Below are positions 1,119 through 17,877 of a stretch of 35,733 nucleotides of DNA, piece after piece. The position numbers and the translations under genes were made by a program. The stretch comes from a virus: IMG/VR virus record IMGVR_UViG_3300032156_000042, positions 1-35,733 of that record; one strand, 5' to 3'. Under the pieces are notes generated by a model that was not told where the DNA came from, ran no database searches, and saw only the letters and a list, made by a program, of their open reading frames with translations. Positions within the stretch are counted from its first letter, which is position 1, and every line of letters begins with the position of its first letter.

Positions 1119-1147
1119 TGTTATGAAGAAAAGTAGACTAAGTGCAT
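1119..1147 (-). repeat. Promoter/operator-like repeat, copy A
   Basis: One of four clear copies of a roughly 30-bp element in front of leftward genes. Read leftward, it has ATGCAC at one end and CATAACA at the other with 17 bases between them, plus conserved internal ACTTWTCTTC. It lies between the stop of the gene above and the GGAGG of the gene starting at 1096. The fixed spacing suggests a promoter or a regulator site; it does not match the sigma-70 consensus. Confidence 0.6.
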
Positions 1148-2035: not shown

Positions 2036-2064
2036 TGTTATGAAGATAAGTTAATTAAGAGCAT
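2036..2064 (-). repeat. Promoter/operator-like repeat, copy B
   Basis: Second copy of the element seen at 1119. Read leftward it contains GATGCT, 17 bases including AACTTATCTT, then CATAACA. It fills the gap between two small genes, just after the upstream stop codon and about 20 bases before the next start. Confidence 0.6.
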
Positions 2065-3177: not shown

Positions 3178-3207
3178 AGTTATGTAGATAAGTTAACTAC
3201 AGCACAT
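3178..3207 (-). repeat. Promoter/operator-like repeat, copy C
   Basis: Third copy: ATGTGC, 17 bases including TAACTTATC, then CATAAC. Similarity to copy D (4569-4598) extends another 20 bases upstream. The core GTAG...CTAC is an imperfect 17-bp palindrome here (14 of 17 positions), which would fit binding by a dimeric regulator. Confidence 0.6.
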
Positions 3208-3623: not shown

Positions 3624-3783
3624 CTTTTTCACCTCCCTTCATTGTGGCATTCACGACTAAGCGAACTTAGCAACATTCGCTATATAGCCAACAGAGCAAA
3701 TTTTTTAAAGTTCTATCAGCATAGCATAAGCATACAAGTAGCAGCATGCTTTTATTTTGCTTAGTTGTTTAGTTGCTTGTTAC

Positions 3784-3856
3784 CCCCGTAATAGTAATGC
3801 ATATATGCTATATGCCACATATACACATTACTATAACGGGGCTAAGCCCGTTATAG
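3784..3856 (-). terminator. Competing hairpins downstream of the pnuC-like gene
   Basis: Arms at 3784-3799 and 3826-3841 pair over 16 bp with one mismatch (ends CCCCG/CGGGG). Arms at 3831-3840 and 3847-3856 pair perfectly over 10 bp (CTATAACGGG with CCCGTTATAG). Both use 3831-3840, so the two stems exclude each other. They begin 6 bases after the stop codon of the pnuC-like gene. There is no T-run. A bistable terminator or 3'-end stabiliser is possible. All of it is free of GA and TC. Confidence 0.55.
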
Positions 3857-3861
3857 TTTAA

Positions 3862-4506
3862 CTACCAAACAAAGTGCTTGCCTGCTTTATTTGCAAGGCT
3901 ATGCTTTTGTTTGCGTAGTTGTAGTTTGTTATATACCCAATTATTATTAGGCCATATTGCTTGCAATAGTGTTACATAAACCATTACTATTTGCCTAATT
4001 GCACACCCATACAATATAGGTATTGTGCTAAATACAATTACTAAATAGCAAGTTTGGTTTATTAAATAAAATATAGCAGCTAACCTTGCCTTGCCTTTGC
4101 CCTTATATAGCCTTAATGTATATGTAACGCCATATATAAGGCAATTGCACACATTAAGGTAGGCAAGCCAGCCGCCTTGCCCTATGCCTGTTATAGTGTA
4201 AACATACATAGTAATAGCTGTACTTAGTGCTAATAGTAACCATACATTGCGTAAACCCCATTTGCTATTAGCTTTAAAGCCACTATGCCATGTTTGCCAA
4301 CCAACAACATTTACTATAATAAAGTAAATTGTTTGGCTAATGTTTACATACCAACCAAAATAACAACCAAACACTAGCCAATAAATGTTGTTAAGCAATG
4401 CAAGTGCAAACATAAGCCTTTTGCCTGCAACAAAAGCCAAAAAACTAGCAAAGGCGTTTACACTATACAGCACATTTACAATGGCCCAAACATACCCTAC
4501 AAACAT
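3862..4506 (-). CDS. PnuC-like membrane transporter with no acidic residues, 214 aa
   Basis: A polytopic membrane protein with about seven hydrophobic segments. The PnuC family moves nicotinamide riboside or related NAD precursors across the inner membrane, and phages are known to carry pnuC. The match rests on length and on the segment at residues 36-76 (ALLNNIYWLVFGCYFGWYVN, then NVVGWQTW), which resembles the conserved N...GWY...W pattern of PnuC. Another small membrane family is possible. The start at 4506 has GGGGGT upstream in place of GGAGGT. The gene lies wholly in the GA/TC-free segment. It therefore has no Asp or Glu in 214 residues, and no AGA, CGA, GGA, TCN, TTC, ATC, CTC or GTC codons. 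Its leader carries repeat copy D. Confidence 0.6.
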   Translation of the reverse strand: MFVGYVWAIVNVLYSVNAFASFLAFVAGKRLMFALALLNNIYWLVFGCYFGWYVNISQTIYFIIVNVVGWQTWHSGFKANSKWGLRNVWLLLALSTAITMYVYTITGIGQGGWLAYLNVCNCLIYGVTYTLRLYKGKGKARLAAIFYLINQTCYLVIVFSTIPILYGCAIRQIVMVYVTLLQAIWPNNNWVYNKLQLRKQKHSLANKAGKHFVW

Positions 4507-4568
4507 TTTAATACCCCCTTTGTGTATAGTTGTTTATTGCTTAGTTACATATTAACAAGTTGTTAAAT

Positions 4569-4598
4569 TGTTATGTTATTAAGTTTACTACTGCACAT
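4569..4598 (-). repeat. Promoter/operator-like repeat, copy D, without GA or TC
   Basis: Fourth copy, in front of the pnuC-like gene: ATGTGC, 17 bases, then CATAACA. Compared with copy C it differs at every TC: TATCTAC is TAATAAC and AATCATG is AATTATG. It is therefore a homologous element adapted to the local rule. A weaker, partial fifth copy may sit at about 4784-4813, ahead of the microprotein. Confidence 0.6.
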
Positions 4599-4643
4599 AA
4601 TTAAATTATGTTATTAGTTTATTTATTTGTTGGTTTGTATGCA

Positions 4644-4718
4644 CTATACATATATGCATACTACTGCAACGCCAAACACACCAAGCCAAAGCACATACCA
4701 AAAATGTTTACTAGGCAT
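4644..4718 (-). CDS. Single-span membrane microprotein, 24 aa
   Basis: A 24-codon ORF starting at 4718 (MPSKHFWYVLWLG) with one hydrophobic segment filling residues 6-24, a short basic N-terminus and no acidic residue. The start context GGGGTATTAAA is the same as that of the pnuC-like gene downstream (GGGGGTATTAAA), which strongly supports translation. It lies inside the GA/TC-free segment, about 140 bp ahead of pnuC and likely co-transcribed. A regulatory or accessory partner of the transporter is a reasonable guess; there is no homology to name it. Confidence 0.6.
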   Translation of the reverse strand: MPSKHFWYVLWLGVFGVAVVCIYV

Positions 4719-4879
4719 TTTAATACCCCATTTGTTTTAAATTGTTTTGTAATTAAGTTTTTATTTTAGTTATAAGGTTAAGTTGTTATGTTTACAATTA
4801 TACAATATGCAATGCGGCTACAATAGCCGTACCCTATGTTATTGTTGGTGTTTGCGTTTAAATGTTGTTATGCTCTCAC

Positions 4880-4931
4880 CTTGATCGCTCGAGAAAAAAA
4901 ATATCTCGAGAATCTTGATCGCTCGAGAAAA
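4880..4931. repeat. CTCGAG boxes at 17-bp spacing within an 18-bp direct repeat
   Basis: CTCGAG occurs at 4888, 4905 and 4922, exactly 17 bp apart. The outer two sit in identical 18-bp units, CTTGATCGCTCGAGAAAA (4880-4897 and 4914-4931). The sites are palindromic and evenly phased, like iterons or operators. They start six bases after the edge of the GA/TC desert. Confidence 0.65.
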
Positions 4932-5012
4932 TTTAGTCTTAAAAATTATGAAGTACGGGGGAGGGTTAACGAAGGTTGGCTTTGCGTGGGTAGGTATAAT
5001 ACTAGGTGGGGC

Positions 5013-5050
5013 AAACGGTCCTTGCACCGTTTCGAAAAGTTTCAAACGGT
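5013..5050. repeat. Three AAACGGT elements forming alternative hairpins
   Basis: AAACGGT (5013-5019), its inverse ACCGTTT (5026-5032) and AAACGGT again (5044-5050). The middle copy can pair with either neighbour; the second pairing also contains GAAA/TTTC. Likely a protein-binding or RNA-switching site. Confidence 0.5.
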
Positions 5051-5129
5051 CTAAAACTTTGGTGGGCATAGCCTTTTCGACAAAAAAAATTTCGAGGAAA
5101 TATATATGCTGGTAATCTATAGGAAGAGT

Positions 5130-5151
5130 GGGCGCTCTTGAGTGAGCGCCC
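5130..5151 (-). terminator. G+C-rich hairpin after the 5158 gene
   Basis: GGGCGCTC and GAGCGCCC form an 8-bp stem with a 6-base loop, 6 bases beyond the stop codon at 5158. It lacks a clear T-run but is well placed to end the leftward operon from 7839. Confidence 0.5.
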
Positions 5152-5157
5152 GTTAGG

Positions 5158-6883: not shown

Positions 6884-7839
6884 CTTAATACCTCTATATC
6901 CCATTTAACTTTTGTTTCGAAATTTTCTATTCTATCGTTGAATCTTTTCTTTATAGACTTTAGTACAATGCTATTAGTTCCAGCCAGTAATGTTTTGGCT
7001 TCCAAGTATTGTAATATTTCTTTATAGGAATAATTCTGTTCAGGCTTAAACAGAGTTATATTGGTTGGTTTTTCTATCTTAGTTAATTTTCTTGCTATAT
7101 TGATGATTCCTTCTTGTTTTGCTTTGATTAACTTCTTTGCGATTGCTGGCTTTTCTTTTTCTATGATATCTATATTTTCAAACACCCCTTTAACTGTATC
7201 GTACTTATTAATTAGCTCCGAAGATTTAGAAGGCCCAATTCCTTCTACTCCAGGAACATTATCACTCTGTTTACAGCCCATTAATATTTTCATTTGAATG
7301 AATTTCTTTGGAGTGGTTTTATACTTTTTCTTTAAACTTTCTAGGGTAAACAGATTGAGCATGGATCTTCTAGCAAACTTATCGTAATTCGTATTAATCA
7401 GGGAAGTTGTTGGAGAAATTAAAGCATAGCAATCTTCATCATTCGTATATAGGTCTGTATCGCCATTAACTTTTTCTATTATAGAAGAAGCAACCTCTTC
7501 ACCTTCATACCCTTTTGCGGCTAAACACGGAATGTTTAGATCATATAAAATTGCCTTGATTAATGTTTTTTCTGTAGAAAGATCTGGGATATCTATTTTC
7601 TTCCTATTTTGTTTATACTTAGAATAGATTTGCTTTTTAATGTACGGAGGAGAATCCCAAGCGGCAATGATGAAATCATACTTGTAATCACTATATAGCC
7701 TAATGATTTCTTTTAAAAAACCGAATATGGCACTTGTGAGTATCTTCCTTTTATCTTTCACAACTGCCAACTGGTTATTTTGGAAAGCAAAATGTGACTT
7801 ATAAACTAGGTAAGATGAGTCTATAACGACAGTCTTCAT
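6880..7839 (-). CDS. 5'-3' exonuclease / flap endonuclease, 319 aa
   Basis: A PolA-N/T5-type FEN nuclease that would remove RNA primers and 5' flaps, or degrade DNA, during replication. Visible signatures are an N-terminal metal Asp (IDSSYLVYKSHF, D7) and AAWDSPPYIKKQ with D62 followed by the Lys/Arg-rich arch. Then come GYEGEEVASSI (acidic residues at 112-115), YTNDEDCYAL (D134, D136), and the helix-3-turn-helix at GCKQSDNVPGVEGIGPSKS (D193). The length is typical for stand-alone phage FENs. The start is set at 7839 (MKTVVIDSSY), with AGGGGA upstream, rather than the ATG at 7857. It is the first gene of the leftward operon, right behind a sigma-70-like promoter. Confidence 0.9.
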   Translation of the reverse strand: MKTVVIDSSYLVYKSHFAFQNNQLAVVKDKRKILTSAIFGFLKEIIRLYSDYKYDFIIAAWDSPPYIKKQIYSKYKQNRKKIDIPDLSTEKTLIKAILYDLNIPCLAAKGYEGEEVASSIIEKVNGDTDLYTNDEDCYALISPTTSLINTNYDKFARRSMLNLFTLESLKKKYKTTPKKFIQMKILMGCKQSDNVPGVEGIGPSKSSELINKYDTVKGVFENIDIIEKEKPAIAKKLIKAKQEGIINIARKLTKIEKPTNITLFKPEQNYSYKEILQYLEAKTLLAGTNSIVLKSIKKRFNDRIENFETKVKWDIEVLR

Positions 7840-7873
7840 TAACCGATCCCCTTCCATAGTGATTATTTATTGT

Positions 7874-7902
7874 ATTATACAGTAGGAACAAAAAGTAAGC
7901 AA
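7874..7902 (-). promoter_or_regulatory. Leftward sigma-70-like promoter
   Basis: Read on the minus strand: TTGCTT at 7902-7897, a 17-base spacer, then a perfect TATAAT at 7879-7874. It lies about 35 bases ahead of the exonuclease start and is the only good candidate to drive the leftward operon. Confidence 0.6.
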
Positions 7903-7939
7903 TTTTTTTTATATATTTTTCTACATTTAAGAATATCGT

Positions 7940-7967
7940 TTGAAGTCTTGTTACTAGAAAGTATAAT
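7940..7967 (+). promoter_or_regulatory. Rightward sigma-70-like promoter
   Basis: TTGAAG at 7940-7945, a 16-base spacer, then TATAAT at 7962-7967. It would transcribe the virion module, leaving a leader of about 60 bases before the small terminase start. The 197-bp gap (7840-8036) is very A+T-rich and holds both divergent promoters. Confidence 0.55.
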
Positions 7968-8036
7968 ATTAGATATTAAAATGCAGACTAATGATCTTGC
8001 GCTGTATATTCTATTATAAGTGTAAAAAACCTATAA

Positions 8037-8609
8037 ATGGAGTCACTTCAAGAGAGGGTAAGGCTGGCGAAAGCTGGCCTTACCCCATGGATTATTATGA
8101 AAAAAGATGGATTAACATTTGAACAGGAAAGGGCAGCTCAACTCCTATCTCTTGGCAAAAAGCTTGGGGATAGAAGTATAGCCGAAAAGGTCGGTATTAG
8201 TCTTAATACCTTACGCTCTTGGAAATCTGACATGAAATTTAAAGTTCGGGTCATGATGCTTTTTGAAGAGAATTTAGAATACGAAAGACTAGAGAGGGTA
8301 AGGAAAATTAAGAAGTACTTGAAACCAATTTATAAAAGGCTAGAAGAAAAGTTGAGTGATCCGAAATTAACCAAAAGTGTTCCTCTTAGAGAACTTATGA
8401 GAATGATGACACAGCTTCATGGAGAACTTAGGTTAGATAAAGTATCTTCTAGAAGGGCATCATTTGAAAAAGAAGAAGATGGGCATGGCGGGAAACCTCA
8501 GATTCCTGAAGGCCATGTGGACCCACTTTCAGAAGCAAGAGCCTTATACACGGCAGGAAGAAGGGAAGAGGCTAATTCTAAAAAAGTTGTGCCATTATTT
8601 AAGGAATAA
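8037..8609 (+). CDS. Terminase small subunit, 190 aa
   Basis: The DNA-recognition subunit of the packaging motor. Residues 27-62 contain a helix-turn-helix (AAQLLSLGKKLGDRSIAEKV then GISLNTLRSWKSD), as in many small terminases. A long charged helical region suited to oligomerisation follows, and a short C-terminal tail. Position and TAATG overlap with the large subunit support the call. No Shine-Dalgarno site precedes the ATG at 8037. An in-frame ATG at 8097 (MKKDGLTFEQ) also lacks one and sits just after a strong hairpin, so the true start is uncertain. Confidence 0.8.
   Translation: MESLQERVRLAKAGLTPWIIMKKDGLTFEQERAAQLLSLGKKLGDRSIAEKVGISLNTLRSWKSDMKFKVRVMMLFEENLEYERLERVRKIKKYLKPIYKRLEEKLSDPKLTKSVPLRELMRMMTQLHGELRLDKVSSRRASFEKEEDGHGGKPQIPEGHVDPLSEARALYTAGRREEANSKKVVPLFKE
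8057..8084 (+). other. GAAA-tetraloop hairpin near the terminase start
   Basis: GGTAAGGC (8057-8064) pairs with GCCTTACC (8077-8084). The inner TGGC/GCTG continues the stem with two G-U pairs around a GAAA tetraloop, giving a 12-bp RNA stem. It falls within the first codons of the small terminase reading frame, 12 bases before the in-frame ATG at 8097. Confidence 0.5.
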
Positions 8610-10459
8610 TGAAGAATAAGAAGATAAAAAGGACCCCTGTTAAAAAAAGCGTTATTAAGAGAACGCCTGTCAAGGGTCCGCTTCTTCTTTCAAAAAAAGA
8701 GCCGTCTGACAATAAGGAGGAATATTTAAAAACGCTTGCCCAGAGCAAGCAAAGGGTTGATAAAGAATTTATCAGTAAAATATCTTCAGAAGTTGGATTC
8801 ATACAAAATCTCACCGAAACAAACCTCGAACCAACTCGCCTTTACGAATACCAACAGAGCATCATGAGCGATAAGAGTAAGTATAGACATATTGACAAAA
8901 GTCGTCAAGTTGGTATGTCTTATGGTTTTGCTTGTGAAGGCTATGCCAAAAGCCAGCTTTTAGATATTTATACTGGAATCTTTATCTCTTATAATCAAGA
9001 TGAAGCTAATGAGAAAGTTGTATATGCGAGAGCTCTTCATGACAGTGTACCATTTAAGTTTAAGAAAAAGCTTGTCATAGATAGAGTAACTGCCTTAGAA
9101 TGGGAAAGCATGGTCAGAGATGGGCGAAAAACAAGAACACGTCTTATAAGCCATCCTCAAAGGGAACCTCGTGGTAAAGGTTTCAATACTGACGTATATC
9201 TAGATGAAATTGCCCATTATCAATGGCCGCAGAAAGTATATATTGCAGCTGTTCCTATTATTACTCGCGGATTTGGTCAACTTGCAATGGCTTCATCTCC
9301 TCTTGGGCAAAGTGGTCTTCATTATGAAATAGGTCATAATGTTCAAGACTACAATATGTATTCCAGGCATAGGATTTATTGGTGGAATAACCCAGATTTT
9401 TTAAGCGATGATGCTCTCCGCCATCCTCTTAATGAAATAGAAGAATTAGCCAGAGACATGGAAACATACGATAGAGTTATGGAGTTCGGTAATGATTCCG
9501 TTCGCCAAGCCTATCAGAGCATGTTGGCAGAATACTTTCAACAGGAATACGAATTAAAAGCCATAGATGAATCTTCTTCTTATTTTTCCATGGACCTTAT
9601 TAAGCAATGCACATTTGAAGCTTTAAAGGGTTTTCAGCATTTAGAGGATGGGGATATTTATGGGGATAATCCTGTTTCTATTGATCCTGTTTTTCCTGGC
9701 TTCAATTTTCATACATATGAATCAATAGAGGAGTTATCACATGCTATCGCAATTGGAAAAGTGGGTAAAAGGTTTGTGGCAGGATATGATGTTGGTCGGA
9801 AAGAAGACGCTTCAGAAGTGTATGTTTTGGAAGAAGTCCCAAATTTAGATTATTTGCAAGTTTTAAGATTGGGAATTTCTATGAAGCGTATGACTTTTAG
9901 AAAACAATTTGATATGATATGCAAATTGTTTCAACATGTCCCGATTCTTAAAATGAAAATAGATTCTACTGGGATTGGTAGAAATATCGCAGAAGATCTA
10001 CAATCTAAATTCCATAGTCGCATAGAGGACATTAATTTTACTAATGAAAATAAAGGCGAAATGGCTGCAAATTTAAAACTTCGCATGGAAGATCAGGCCA
10101 TTGCCTATCCCAGTGAGAGAGATCTCATTAGACAAATCCACAGCATCAAGCGGAAAGTTTCTGAAACTTCTGTGATTAAATTTGAAATACCAGAATCTGA
10201 AAGAAGAAGCCATCATGGTGACAAGTTTTGGGCTTTGGCGTTAGGTTCTTCTGCCGGACAACCTGCTCAAATGCATAAGGTCGTATTGCTTTCTACTAAT
10301 ATTAGAAAGATAGCTCCTAATGACAGAATAATTAAACTTCCGCCTAACAGGATTTTTAAGAGAGATACAGTAATCGAAGGTGTTAATTACAAGAAAATCG
10401 AAATGCCTCCTCGGGTGGCTAGTGAATTCGCAGTAGATTCATTAATTTCTAACATTTAG
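8609..10459 (+). CDS. Terminase large subunit, 616 aa
   Basis: The packaging ATPase and nuclease. The ATPase part shows a variant Walker A, KSRQVGMSYG (97-106), Walker B DVYLDE (195-200, catalytic E200) and a coupling motif ASS (228-230). The RNase H-like nuclease part shows acidic residues D394 (AGYDVGRKEDASEV), D452 (KIDSTGIG) and D538 (HGDKFWALAL). Length is normal. The N-terminus is unusual: the motif KRTPVK occurs twice in the first 22 residues, and KRTPVR also opens the protease/scaffold gene. The start overlaps the small subunit stop (TAATG), so the two subunits are coupled. Confidence 0.93.
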   Translation: MKNKKIKRTPVKKSVIKRTPVKGPLLLSKKEPSDNKEEYLKTLAQSKQRVDKEFISKISSEVGFIQNLTETNLEPTRLYEYQQSIMSDKSKYRHIDKSRQVGMSYGFACEGYAKSQLLDIYTGIFISYNQDEANEKVVYARALHDSVPFKFKKKLVIDRVTALEWESMVRDGRKTRTRLISHPQREPRGKGFNTDVYLDEIAHYQWPQKVYIAAVPIITRGFGQLAMASSPLGQSGLHYEIGHNVQDYNMYSRHRIYWWNNPDFLSDDALRHPLNEIEELARDMETYDRVMEFGNDSVRQAYQSMLAEYFQQEYELKAIDESSSYFSMDLIKQCTFEALKGFQHLEDGDIYGDNPVSIDPVFPGFNFHTYESIEELSHAIAIGKVGKRFVAGYDVGRKEDASEVYVLEEVPNLDYLQVLRLGISMKRMTFRKQFDMICKLFQHVPILKMKIDSTGIGRNIAEDLQSKFHSRIEDINFTNENKGEMAANLKLRMEDQAIAYPSERDLIRQIHSIKRKVSETSVIKFEIPESERRSHHGDKFWALALGSSAGQPAQMHKVVLLSTNIRKIAPNDRIIKLPPNRIFKRDTVIEGVNYKKIEMPPRVASEFAVDSLISNI

Positions 10460-15364: not shown

Positions 15365-16603
15365 ATGGACGCATTGGTTAACTCTCCGCTTTTGACACCC
15401 CGTTATCTTATGACGGTGATCGACGATATACCAGCTCAAACAGAAGTATATCGTGGGGCTGAAATATTTCCGCTCGTAACTCAACCAGGACCGAAGGTCG
15501 AATGGGATATTAAAAGACCTCTCGGAGGAATGACTCAGGCAGTTGCCCGAGGCGCTGAATCTCCGGTTATTCATCGGAGAGGCGTTGGGCAAGCTTCGTT
15601 CGAGCCTGCCCATTTCCGTGAAAAAGTGATTCTCGGTGAGTCTGATGTTACTACACTGAGAAAACTCGGCACATGGGAGCAGCGGTCAACGGCTGCTGAA
15701 CTCATTGCTGAAATTATGATCGATCTTAACTCGAGACTCGACACGAGACTCGAATGGATGAGATGGCAGCCGATCGTAAACAACTCATTGGCTATCAATG
15801 AGAATAAGGTTCAGTTTACGGTTAGCTACAACATGCCAGCACGTCAAAGACCCACAGCATCTCCGCTGTGGAGCACCTATGCTACTGCCGATCCCATTAC
15901 GGATATTCAAACGTGGCTTCGACTAATCAGAGGATCTGGTGGTAAGATTAAGAAGTTTTGGTTCAACACGAAAGTAGAAATGCATCTTTTCCGCAATGCT
16001 AGAATTCTTAGTCTTGTAGATAGGGTTTTTAATTCCGGAAATGTTGGTCTTATGAGCCCAGAAATTCTTGGCGCTATCCTTAGGACCTACATTGGGAATT
16101 ATCCCTATGAAGTTTACGATGCTGGTTACAATCTAATCACATACACGACTGCCGCTCAGGCTTCTGGGTCAGTGACAAACGTGTATGTTGATGATGCAAC
16201 AGGGATCGTAGCTACGGATGTTGTTCAGATTGCTGCTGCTGATGAGTCAGCTGAGGAAAATCTCACAGTATCGTCTGTTTCTGGAAATACTCTGAACTGT
16301 ACTGGTTCCACAGTTACCGGAACATATCCCGCGAATAGCATGATTCGCTGCTATAAAACCTATCTTCCTGATAACGTATTCGTAATGGAAGCAGATTTTC
16401 CTGCTGGTTCCGGACCAAAAGGCGAAGTTATCAGTGTTGATGCTGTGTATGGTGCTGGAAGTCTTACTGCACCGAAACCTGGAAAATTCGCTGAAACAAT
16501 TTTCCTTAACAAAGATCCTAAACAGATTGAGATCATCAACGGGATCAATGCTCTGCCAGTAATGTATCGCAAGAGGGGATTCATTGTTGCGACAATTGCT
16601 TAA
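15365..16603 (+). CDS. Major capsid protein, lambda gpE-like, 412 aa
   Basis: The N-terminal part (RYLMTVIDDIPAQTEVYRGA, IFPLVTQPGPKVEWDIKRP) and the C-terminal part (GEVISVDAVYGAGS, PGKFAETIFLNKDPKQIEII) fit the major capsid protein E family, which forms the HK97-fold shell. It is longer than gpE (341 aa in lambda) because of a Ser/Thr/Val-rich insertion at about residues 262-330 that looks like a surface beta domain (TNVYVDDATGIVATDVVQIA). The 68-bp leader contains a small TCGAA/TTCGA hairpin before TAGGAGGAT. A high translation rate is expected. Confidence 0.88.
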   Translation: MDALVNSPLLTPRYLMTVIDDIPAQTEVYRGAEIFPLVTQPGPKVEWDIKRPLGGMTQAVARGAESPVIHRRGVGQASFEPAHFREKVILGESDVTTLRKLGTWEQRSTAAELIAEIMIDLNSRLDTRLEWMRWQPIVNNSLAINENKVQFTVSYNMPARQRPTASPLWSTYATADPITDIQTWLRLIRGSGGKIKKFWFNTKVEMHLFRNARILSLVDRVFNSGNVGLMSPEILGAILRTYIGNYPYEVYDAGYNLITYTTAAQASGSVTNVYVDDATGIVATDVVQIAAADESAEENLTVSSVSGNTLNCTGSTVTGTYPANSMIRCYKTYLPDNVFVMEADFPAGSGPKGEVISVDAVYGAGSLTAPKPGKFAETIFLNKDPKQIEIINGINALPVMYRKRGFIVATIA

Positions 16604-16623
16604 CGAGTGTTGATTAAAGTTAA

Positions 16624-16645
16624 AATATTCCTTGCAACTTGCAAA
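16624..16645. repeat. Inverted repeat, left copy
   Basis: This 22-bp sequence containing AATATTCCTTGCAACTT is repeated in inverted orientation at 20155-20176 with a single mismatch. It lies in the 62-bp gap after the capsid gene, just ahead of the ribosome site of the next gene. Confidence 0.7.
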
Positions 16646-16665
16646 GTTATTTATGGAGGAGGGCT

Positions 16666-17055
16666 ATGTCTAGATCAGTGAGGATACTTTTCCCATCTTT
16701 AACACATAATGGGAAAATATATGATTACGGAGAAGTTGAAAGTGAGCCGACACCGTGGCTGGTGGAAGCGGCTAAGAAGAAACTTAAAATGTTCCATAGG
16801 GATTCAAATAAAGAAGTTAGAGTCGCTAAATTTGTAGAATCTGACGACGAAGCATCACTTGATCCTGAAGAAACAGAAGAAAAACTTCCAAGAGTATTTA
16901 CATTGAATGATTTAGTGTCTGATGAAGACCTAGAAGATAAGATGAAGCCAGAACTTAGCGAACTGGCTTCATCTCTAGGTCTGAAAGATAAGCTGGTTAA
17001 GAAGTATGAAAAAGATCAGCTTAAAAAATTCATAACATTTATGAGGAAACTCTAA
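16666..17055 (+). CDS. Hypothetical head or neck protein, 129 aa
   Basis: The start at 16666 (MSRSVRILFPSLTHNG) has GGAGGAGGG 4 bases upstream. The first 45 residues are a compact beta/helix part (YDYGEVESEPTPWLVEAAKK). An acidic stretch follows (SDDEASLDPEETEEK). The C-terminal 50 residues (PELSELASSLGLKDKLVKKY) look like a small helix-extended-loop-helix module of the SAP/Rho-N style found at the ends of phage head proteins. The exact role is unknown. Confidence 0.55.
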   Translation: MSRSVRILFPSLTHNGKIYDYGEVESEPTPWLVEAAKKKLKMFHRDSNKEVRVAKFVESDDEASLDPEETEEKLPRVFTLNDLVSDEDLEDKMKPELSELASSLGLKDKLVKKYEKDQLKKFITFMRKL

Positions 17056-17877
17056 ATGGAATACACAACGATTGATGATGTTAAGAGGCTTTTGAGAATA
17101 CTGAATGTTCCTGGGGACAATCAGCATAAGATTCGTTTTTCAGATTCTTATACGGTTCCAGAGGCATATACGAACAATACGGGTACAGCTATTCTTGATG
17201 GAAAATTAGTCATCAATCCGGCTTATGCGGGAAGTGAATTTTGGCATGTAGAATTCATTTCACCGACTCAATTTAGTTTGTTTAGAAGTGAAGATACAAC
17301 TAAGAATGATGGTACTGGCTCCAAAACTACATCATTCCTTTCTCTTTCTAAAATTGTCAGAATTCCTGTTGAAGCGTGGGTTGGTGGGGAGCCTGCTGCT
17401 GGTGATAAGTTTAAGTTTAGAACCGATTCGAACATGTCTGATGACGACGTCGCTGGCTATATTGATGATAGTGGTGCGATAGTTGATGTTATGCTAAGGG
17501 AGAAAATTTCAGACACATATGTTCCTTTCTCAAATAAAAGTCTCCCAGTTGTTATTTCTAAAGCAACTGCCTATATCGCAGCAAACTTGGTTTATACATC
17601 AATATATGCCAGCATGAGCGTAGATACATTACCAACTCTTGTTAGGAGATGGTATAATCTTGGCAGAGATATGATAAAATTTTATATGGAAAGCATTGAT
17701 GGCAAGAATAAAAATGCTTTCACAAGACATGCTAGATTCATTTCAAGACAACCGCTTTTTACTAAGATTAGTGTGGCAGAAGCTGCCGGAATAGAAGGTA
17801 TGGTTGGTGAAATAGAAACTGTGAATGTTGAGTATGATACTGATTTCAATAATAGGGAGCAATTGGGGTCAACATAA
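17056..17877 (+). CDS. Head-tail connector, gp6/DUF1320-like with insertion, 273 aa
   Basis: YTTIDDVKRLLRI at the start and SDDDVAGYIDDSGAIVDVML, then FSNKSLPVVISKATAYIAAN, at about residues 128-190 fit helical adaptor proteins that dock under the portal (HK97 gp6 or Mu gp36/DUF1320 type). Between them, residues about 20-125 form a beta-rich insertion (WHVEFISPTQFSLF and onward) not usual for the family. The ATG follows the previous stop directly. The residues after about 230 are extra too. Confidence 0.6.
   Translation: MEYTTIDDVKRLLRILNVPGDNQHKIRFSDSYTVPEAYTNNTGTAILDGKLVINPAYAGSEFWHVEFISPTQFSLFRSEDTTKNDGTGSKTTSFLSLSKIVRIPVEAWVGGEPAAGDKFKFRTDSNMSDDDVAGYIDDSGAIVDVMLREKISDTYVPFSNKSLPVVISKATAYIAANLVYTSIYASMSVDTLPTLVRRWYNLGRDMIKFYMESIDGKNKNAFTRHARFISRQPLFTKISVAEAAGIEGMVGEIETVNVEYDTDFNNREQLGST

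Follow-up and report, generated by a model that had tools for sequence, protein, structure and literature searches.

Why should a phage carry more than a kilobase of DNA from which one complementary pair of dinucleotides, GA and TC, is missing altogether? The locus that raises this question lies in a 35,733-bp stretch, hereafter the window, which is the whole of an IMG/VR record classed as linear, a type of record that is often a fragment. Neither GA nor TC occurs at 3718-4873 (1156 bp), an island bounded by a TC at 3716 and a TC at 4874, and the second-longest GA/TC gap in the window measures only 48 bp. About 147 occurrences would be expected at the window frequency of 0.127 per step (chance about 10^-68), and 129 from the local base composition, so that the 1.16-kb exclusion claimed in an earlier note on this DNA is real. 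Every other dinucleotide is found in the island, with CG being scarce (12 vs 32) and GC abundant (78 vs 32). The same note had described sharp ends, a description that holds on the right, where the density of GA/TC reaches 0.30 in the next 50 bp against 0.127 for the genome, but not on the left, where there is no density contrast. The dense block at the right edge (4874..4923) consists of TTGATCGCTCGAG repeats, and its densest 100 bp rank among the top 0.7% of GA/TC densities in the window.

The island encodes two minus-strand proteins that contain neither Asp nor Glu. The larger is a membrane protein of 214 aa (3862..4506), which we describe only as PnuC-like, since its match to the Pfam family NMN_transporter (PF04973) scores 16.9 bits (E 0.0065) against a cut-off of 27.3. 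Its structure model has eight helices at low confidence, a model of a small protein from one island was of low confidence too, and a fold search returned nothing usable. The smaller is a membrane microprotein of 24 aa (MPSKHFWYVLWLGVFGVAVVCIYV, 4644..4718); a plus-strand ORF had been taken for the microprotein, but the conserved ORF proved to be on the minus strand. The signals of both genes are altered in keeping with the exclusion. Shine-Dalgarno sites elsewhere are of the GGAGG type, whereas that of the transporter (AAAGGGGGTATTAAA, 4507..4521, minus strand) reads GGGGGT, with GGGGG replacing GGAGG, and that of the microprotein (AAATGGGGTATTAAA, 4719..4733, minus strand) reads GGGGT. Likewise, a repeated upstream element on the plus strand contains GA in its three copies outside the island (1120..1140, 2037..2057 and 3179..3199, the last being GTTATGTAGATAAGTTAACTA), all of which are GTTATGAAGATAAGTTAATTA or near it, while the island copy (4570..4590) is the GA-free GTTATGTTATTAAGTTTACTA. 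A long hairpin with 28-nt arms, 86% complementary, lies within the island 3' of the transporter gene (3780..3845, minus strand) and is probably the 3' end of its transcript. To the right of the island is the structural module, with terminase, Mu-type portal, capsid E and tail tube genes; a probable small terminase (8037..8609, plus strand; weak HTH_Tnp_1_2 match) adjoins the large terminase TerL (8609..10459, plus strand; Terminase_6C). In the left arm, small leftward genes have TTAAAGGTTAA-type repeats at their 3' ends or close by (2460, 3230 and 3434).

Searches of phage records at the DNA and protein level with the island or its transporter gave no match, and in IMG/VR the transporter and microprotein found a single match, the 97.7-kb genome G002. 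This genome was also among the relatives that we collected through the large terminase, which is 62% identical between the two phages. G002 has a syntenic island of 917 bp without GA/TC (67745-68661), with both genes in matching order; the transporters share 34% identity (E 9e-22), and the G002 microprotein (MVSKHFWYVLWLGVFGVAVICMYV, 68497-68571) is almost identical to that of the window. Its upstream element follows the same pattern, with two copies outside the island that contain GA and an inside copy that reads GTTATATTGTTAAGTTAACAA. A global alignment of the two islands has 268 differing sites, and the chance that a random substitution in such DNA creates a new GA or TC is 1/3; that none is present after so many changes shows that the exclusion has been maintained by continued purifying selection. 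The prediction that a homologous tract in a relative would also be free of GA was thus confirmed, and the contrary outcome, relatives carrying the same genes with normal GA content, was not what we found in G002. We detected no island in the sister genome G001 (95.9 kb) nor in the partial genomes G003 and G004. G-rich non-coding DNA adjoins the island in both phages (window 4874-5157; G002 68661-69000, locus L019) and sits near the GC-skew minimum in G002, and it is possible that this flank is a replication origin or a packaging site. Elsewhere in G002, two loci (7271-8602, L016; 23574-24761, L017 3574-4761) encode proteins with long DDDDDKPKKKVVEEE repeats.

Candidates for a DNA modification pathway are present in G002, which encodes a hydroxymethylase of the thymidylate synthase family (16246-17451) and a TAGT DNA glycosyltransferase (PF20691, E 3.0e-99), together with a radical SAM protein, further glycosyltransferase and methyltransferase genes, a 5'-deoxynucleotidase and a sigma-like factor. 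The best structure match of the hydroxymethylase is the CMP 5-hydroxymethylase 5b6d (E 4.6e-24), with thymidylate synthases at E about 1e-7. However, in all 33 inspected sequences Asn occupies a position that is Asp in CMP hydroxymethylase and Asn in thymidylate synthase. According to an established rule, the residue at this position decides between uracil and cytosine specificity, and the substrate should therefore be dUMP, which would make the enzyme a dUMP-type hydroxymethylase. G001 has the hydroxymethylase and lacks both TAGT and the island. Within the partial 35.7-kb window record we found no modification genes, TAGT and hydroxymethylase included, and we infer from G002 that the window phage carries this pathway.

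The association with TAGT extends beyond these two phages. G006, a genome picked solely for its TAGT, contains a 632-bp GA/TC-free island around the gene for an unrelated basic protein of 102 aa, whose only match in IMG/VR was itself. A GA/TC-dense block lies on one flank of the island in G006, G002 and the window alike. In a wider TAGT search of IMG/VR we took the best 80 of 199 relatives and read 35 contigs in full, 33 of which also have the hydroxymethylase. Exact islands of 320-917 bp are present in 11 TAGT contigs: besides G002 and G006, these are G031/G032 (759 bp), G035 (732 bp), G036 (816 bp), G040/G063 (438 bp), G046 (662 bp), G053 (462 bp, truncated where its contig stops) and G057 (320 bp). 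Three more (G038, G039 and G050) are strongly but not exactly depleted. Islands occur in at least eight phage lineages besides the window phage. The recovery of the same islands from separate metagenome records (G031/G032, G035/G036, G040/G063) rules out an assembly artefact. Among the phages scanned, islands are restricted to those with TAGT, being found in none of 13 TAGT-free phages, including CAjan, 9g, M6, ViI and phiW-14 (Fisher exact p 0.012, rising to 0.023 once near-identical pairs are counted as one, with few TAGT-free controls behind these values because TAGT contigs were searched first). The converse does not hold, as the island is missing in about two thirds of TAGT contigs, including LuckyBarnes, DLP6 and MW202897; many of these contigs are incomplete, but LuckyBarnes and MW202897 are complete genomes, and the latter has both TAGT and hydroxymethylase. 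In MW202897 (L290), an annotated pyrimidine hydroxymethylase and a glucosyl transferase lie side by side. Island and non-island phages are not clearly separated in a TAGT tree. Shorter GA/TC-free stretches span intergenic DNA in other TAGT phages (L169 146-294, 148 bp; L157 13865-13973, 108 bp), and a 440-bp AT-free stretch in G008 (49734-50174, L128) is a serine-rich coding repeat, not a comparable island.

Across lineages, each island corresponds to one transcription unit and extends roughly 40-260 bp past the coding part, although in G057 the gene extends about 30 bp past the strict island edge. The genes themselves differ between lineages and are unrelated, without common function; the proteins of G031, G035 and G036 form one family, at 36-69% identity. 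What the units share is the imprint of the exclusion: Shine-Dalgarno sites are of the GGGG type, and Asp and Glu are absent from the proteins, save for one residue in G057, while pI values are 9.7-11.3. Several have a lysine/alanine-rich tail in common, and the C-terminal stretch of several looks by eye like a winged helix, a resemblance that neither family searches nor a model confirmed. Hairpins lie 3' of the gene within the island in G006, G031, G035, G040, G046 and G053, several with a T-run. Sigma-70 promoter scores of the upstream regions did not convincingly exceed those of shuffled sequences. In all island contigs in which TerL was found, it lies within a few kb of the island, which is usually upstream.

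The excluded context varies, and this variation helps to identify the base concerned. Most islands exclude TC, which is GA on the opposite strand. In G057 (L277, 3240-3680), TC/GA and TG/CA are cleared from one stretch (over 500 bp, GA 4 vs 59 and CA 5 vs 57), and the leftovers include the start codon ATG, one codon for tryptophan (TGG) and one for aspartate (GAC). In G045, a 71-kb TAGT phage, AGA/TCT is absent or nearly so and GGA/TCC rare over 3.3 kb (L245, 1118-4411; AGA 5 vs 66, GGA 14 vs 55), with TCA and TCG normal, in a stretch where several small ORFs have Shine-Dalgarno sites of the GGGG type. T is common to TC, TC plus TG, and TCT/TCC, which makes the thymine of TC the probable site of modification, and the combination of varying contexts with a dUMP-type hydroxymethylase points the same way. 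The hypermodified thymine of M6, ViI and phiW-14 has been inferred to lie in a TG/TC (TS) context (PMC6449724). Most likely, then, the island is free of a glycosylated, base-J-like thymine rather than of deazaguanine in GA, with the opposite adenine, or in most phages the cytosine of TC, standing as formal alternatives.

Guanine in GA, modified to 7-deazaguanine by a DpdA-type enzyme, was the proposal of the earlier note, and it has a precedent in CAjan, in which G is reportedly modified in GA and GGC contexts. CAjan-type phages do resemble the phages studied here in having DNA modification in a dinucleotide context. Nonetheless, CAjan DpdA has no match in G000-G004 (9g control, E 2.6e-157), and queC (PF06508) is likewise missing from these genomes although both CAjan and 9g match, the window phage being represented by its partial record; we used these two tests in place of PF01702 (TGT family), which misses CAjan. 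G002 thus lacks DpdA and QueC, CAjan and 9g lack a GA-free island, and G057 excludes CA/TG as well, a context that does not contain GA. We therefore regard deazaguanine as very improbable; the search for dpdA and queuosine genes suggested earlier came out negative, whereas the broader idea of an unmodified island is well supported by the homologous and independent islands, the link to hydroxymethylase and TAGT, and the varying contexts. Even less credible is a cytosine deaminase specific for TC whose mutations stripped the region of TC on both strands. TC-to-TT changes on both strands would erase TC and GA alike, but GA was lost from repeats and Shine-Dalgarno sites through A-to-T and A-to-G changes besides G-to-A (GAAGAT to GTTATT, GGAGG to GGGGG). 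These changes, not limited to C-to-T and G-to-A and including transversions, refute hypermutation and fit selection against the dinucleotide itself, and neither the sharp island edges nor the zero GA/TC of homologs at 34-69% protein identity agrees with a deaminase. Selection at the RNA level, as by an endoribonuclease, we reject since the transcribed strand is cleared of both GA and TC.

What an island without glycosylated thymine might be for is a separate question. We propose that the hydroxymethylase makes 5-hydroxymethyl-dUMP and that TAGT, acting on DNA at a fixed short context, glycosylates this base, so that the DNA of this phage group would bear a bulky, base-J-like modification on the thymine of 5'-TC-3'. 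Selection would have cleared this context from both strands of one full unit, comprising upstream element, Shine-Dalgarno site, gene or genes and terminator hairpin, and the unit would stay unmodified. Host RNA polymerase, stalled elsewhere by glycosylated thymines, could then read the bare unit, for example right after entry. We consider this combination of a modified TC thymine and a purged unit readable to host RNA polymerase reasonably probable, and transcription, at about an even chance, ranks first among the purposes. Base J, a glucosylated hydroxymethyluracil, is a strong block to transcription and a moderate one to replication (PMC4111573), and that the island is a self-contained transcription unit fits a need for transcription from modified DNA. 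Searches with the T7-like RNA polymerase family PF00940 gave no match, in the controls likewise. The symmetry of the exclusion fits transcription less well. Only lesions in the template strand would be expected to stop RNA polymerase fully, and the equal clearing of both strands is easier to reconcile with a process that reads the duplex, of which packaging or a modification-dependent nuclease would be examples.

It is accordingly worth weighing whether the island is a packaging site (pac/cos) or physical genome end, where terminase would need DNA with neither strand bearing bulky groups in the major groove, and where the surviving genes would be those able to do without Asp and Glu. Besides strand symmetry, this is favored by the constant position of the island a few kb upstream wherever TerL was found, and by contigs with an end that coincides with it or lies a few hundred bp away at most (G036, G038, G039, G053, G062). 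Against it, every island holds a full unit with Shine-Dalgarno sites, most with a terminator hairpin, island-encoded proteins are conserved, a recognition site of 320-1156 bp would be long, and in the window phage the terminase genes are 3-4 kb away; packaging is a serious but minority candidate. Somewhat less probable again is a first-entering unit whose lack of modification would keep it safe from type IV nucleases until an anti-defence product is made. A duplex-cutting enzyme would indeed require the clearing of both strands, variable unrelated genes are typical of anti-defence loci, and a unit so close to the packaging genes could sit at a genome end, with contig ends near some islands no more than hinting at first entry; but the remaining genome would still be cut, and in family searches the island products resemble no known anti-restriction protein.

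If our preferred reading, a bare transcription unit that bootstraps expression off an otherwise unreadable glycosylated genome, is correct, these phages would combine chemical protection of the genome with a built-in readable window, and the purged context would tell which sequence the glycosyltransferase of the phage itself recognizes. The di- or trinucleotide modified by an uncultured phage could then be read from sequence alone, and how the unmodified RNA polymerase of the host starts on hypermodified DNA would become testable. In the islands, moreover, coding sequences evolve under a constraint at the DNA level that forbids the codons for Asp and Glu. We give about even chances to our reading, which, judged by a narrow check of open-licence papers, would be a new principle in how phage genomes are organised.

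Several known systems share elements with this arrangement. Base J is made through JBP oxidation of T in DNA. The base J of kinetoplastids is likewise a glycosylated, transcription-blocking hydroxymethyluracil (PMC4111573), but it belongs to another domain of life and serves as a termination mark rather than being excluded from a gene. M6, ViI and phiW-14 modify thymine in a TS context via 5-hydroxymethyl-dU (PMC6449724), yet they have neither TAGT nor a TS-free or TC-free island. The TAGT of T2, T6 and other phages (PF20691) is of the same protein family, with a hydroxymethylated pyrimidine as presumed acceptor (PMC13216743). In T2 and T6, however, it adds a second sugar onto glucosyl-hmC, whereas here its partner would be a dUMP-type hydroxymethylase and its target a short context. 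Finally, the pre-early region of T5 has no known EcoRI sites. It thus resembles the islands as a defined segment without the sequence that would expose it, but in T5 the threat is restriction of unmodified DNA and what is missing is a 6-bp site over kilobases, whereas here it is every occurrence of a dinucleotide.
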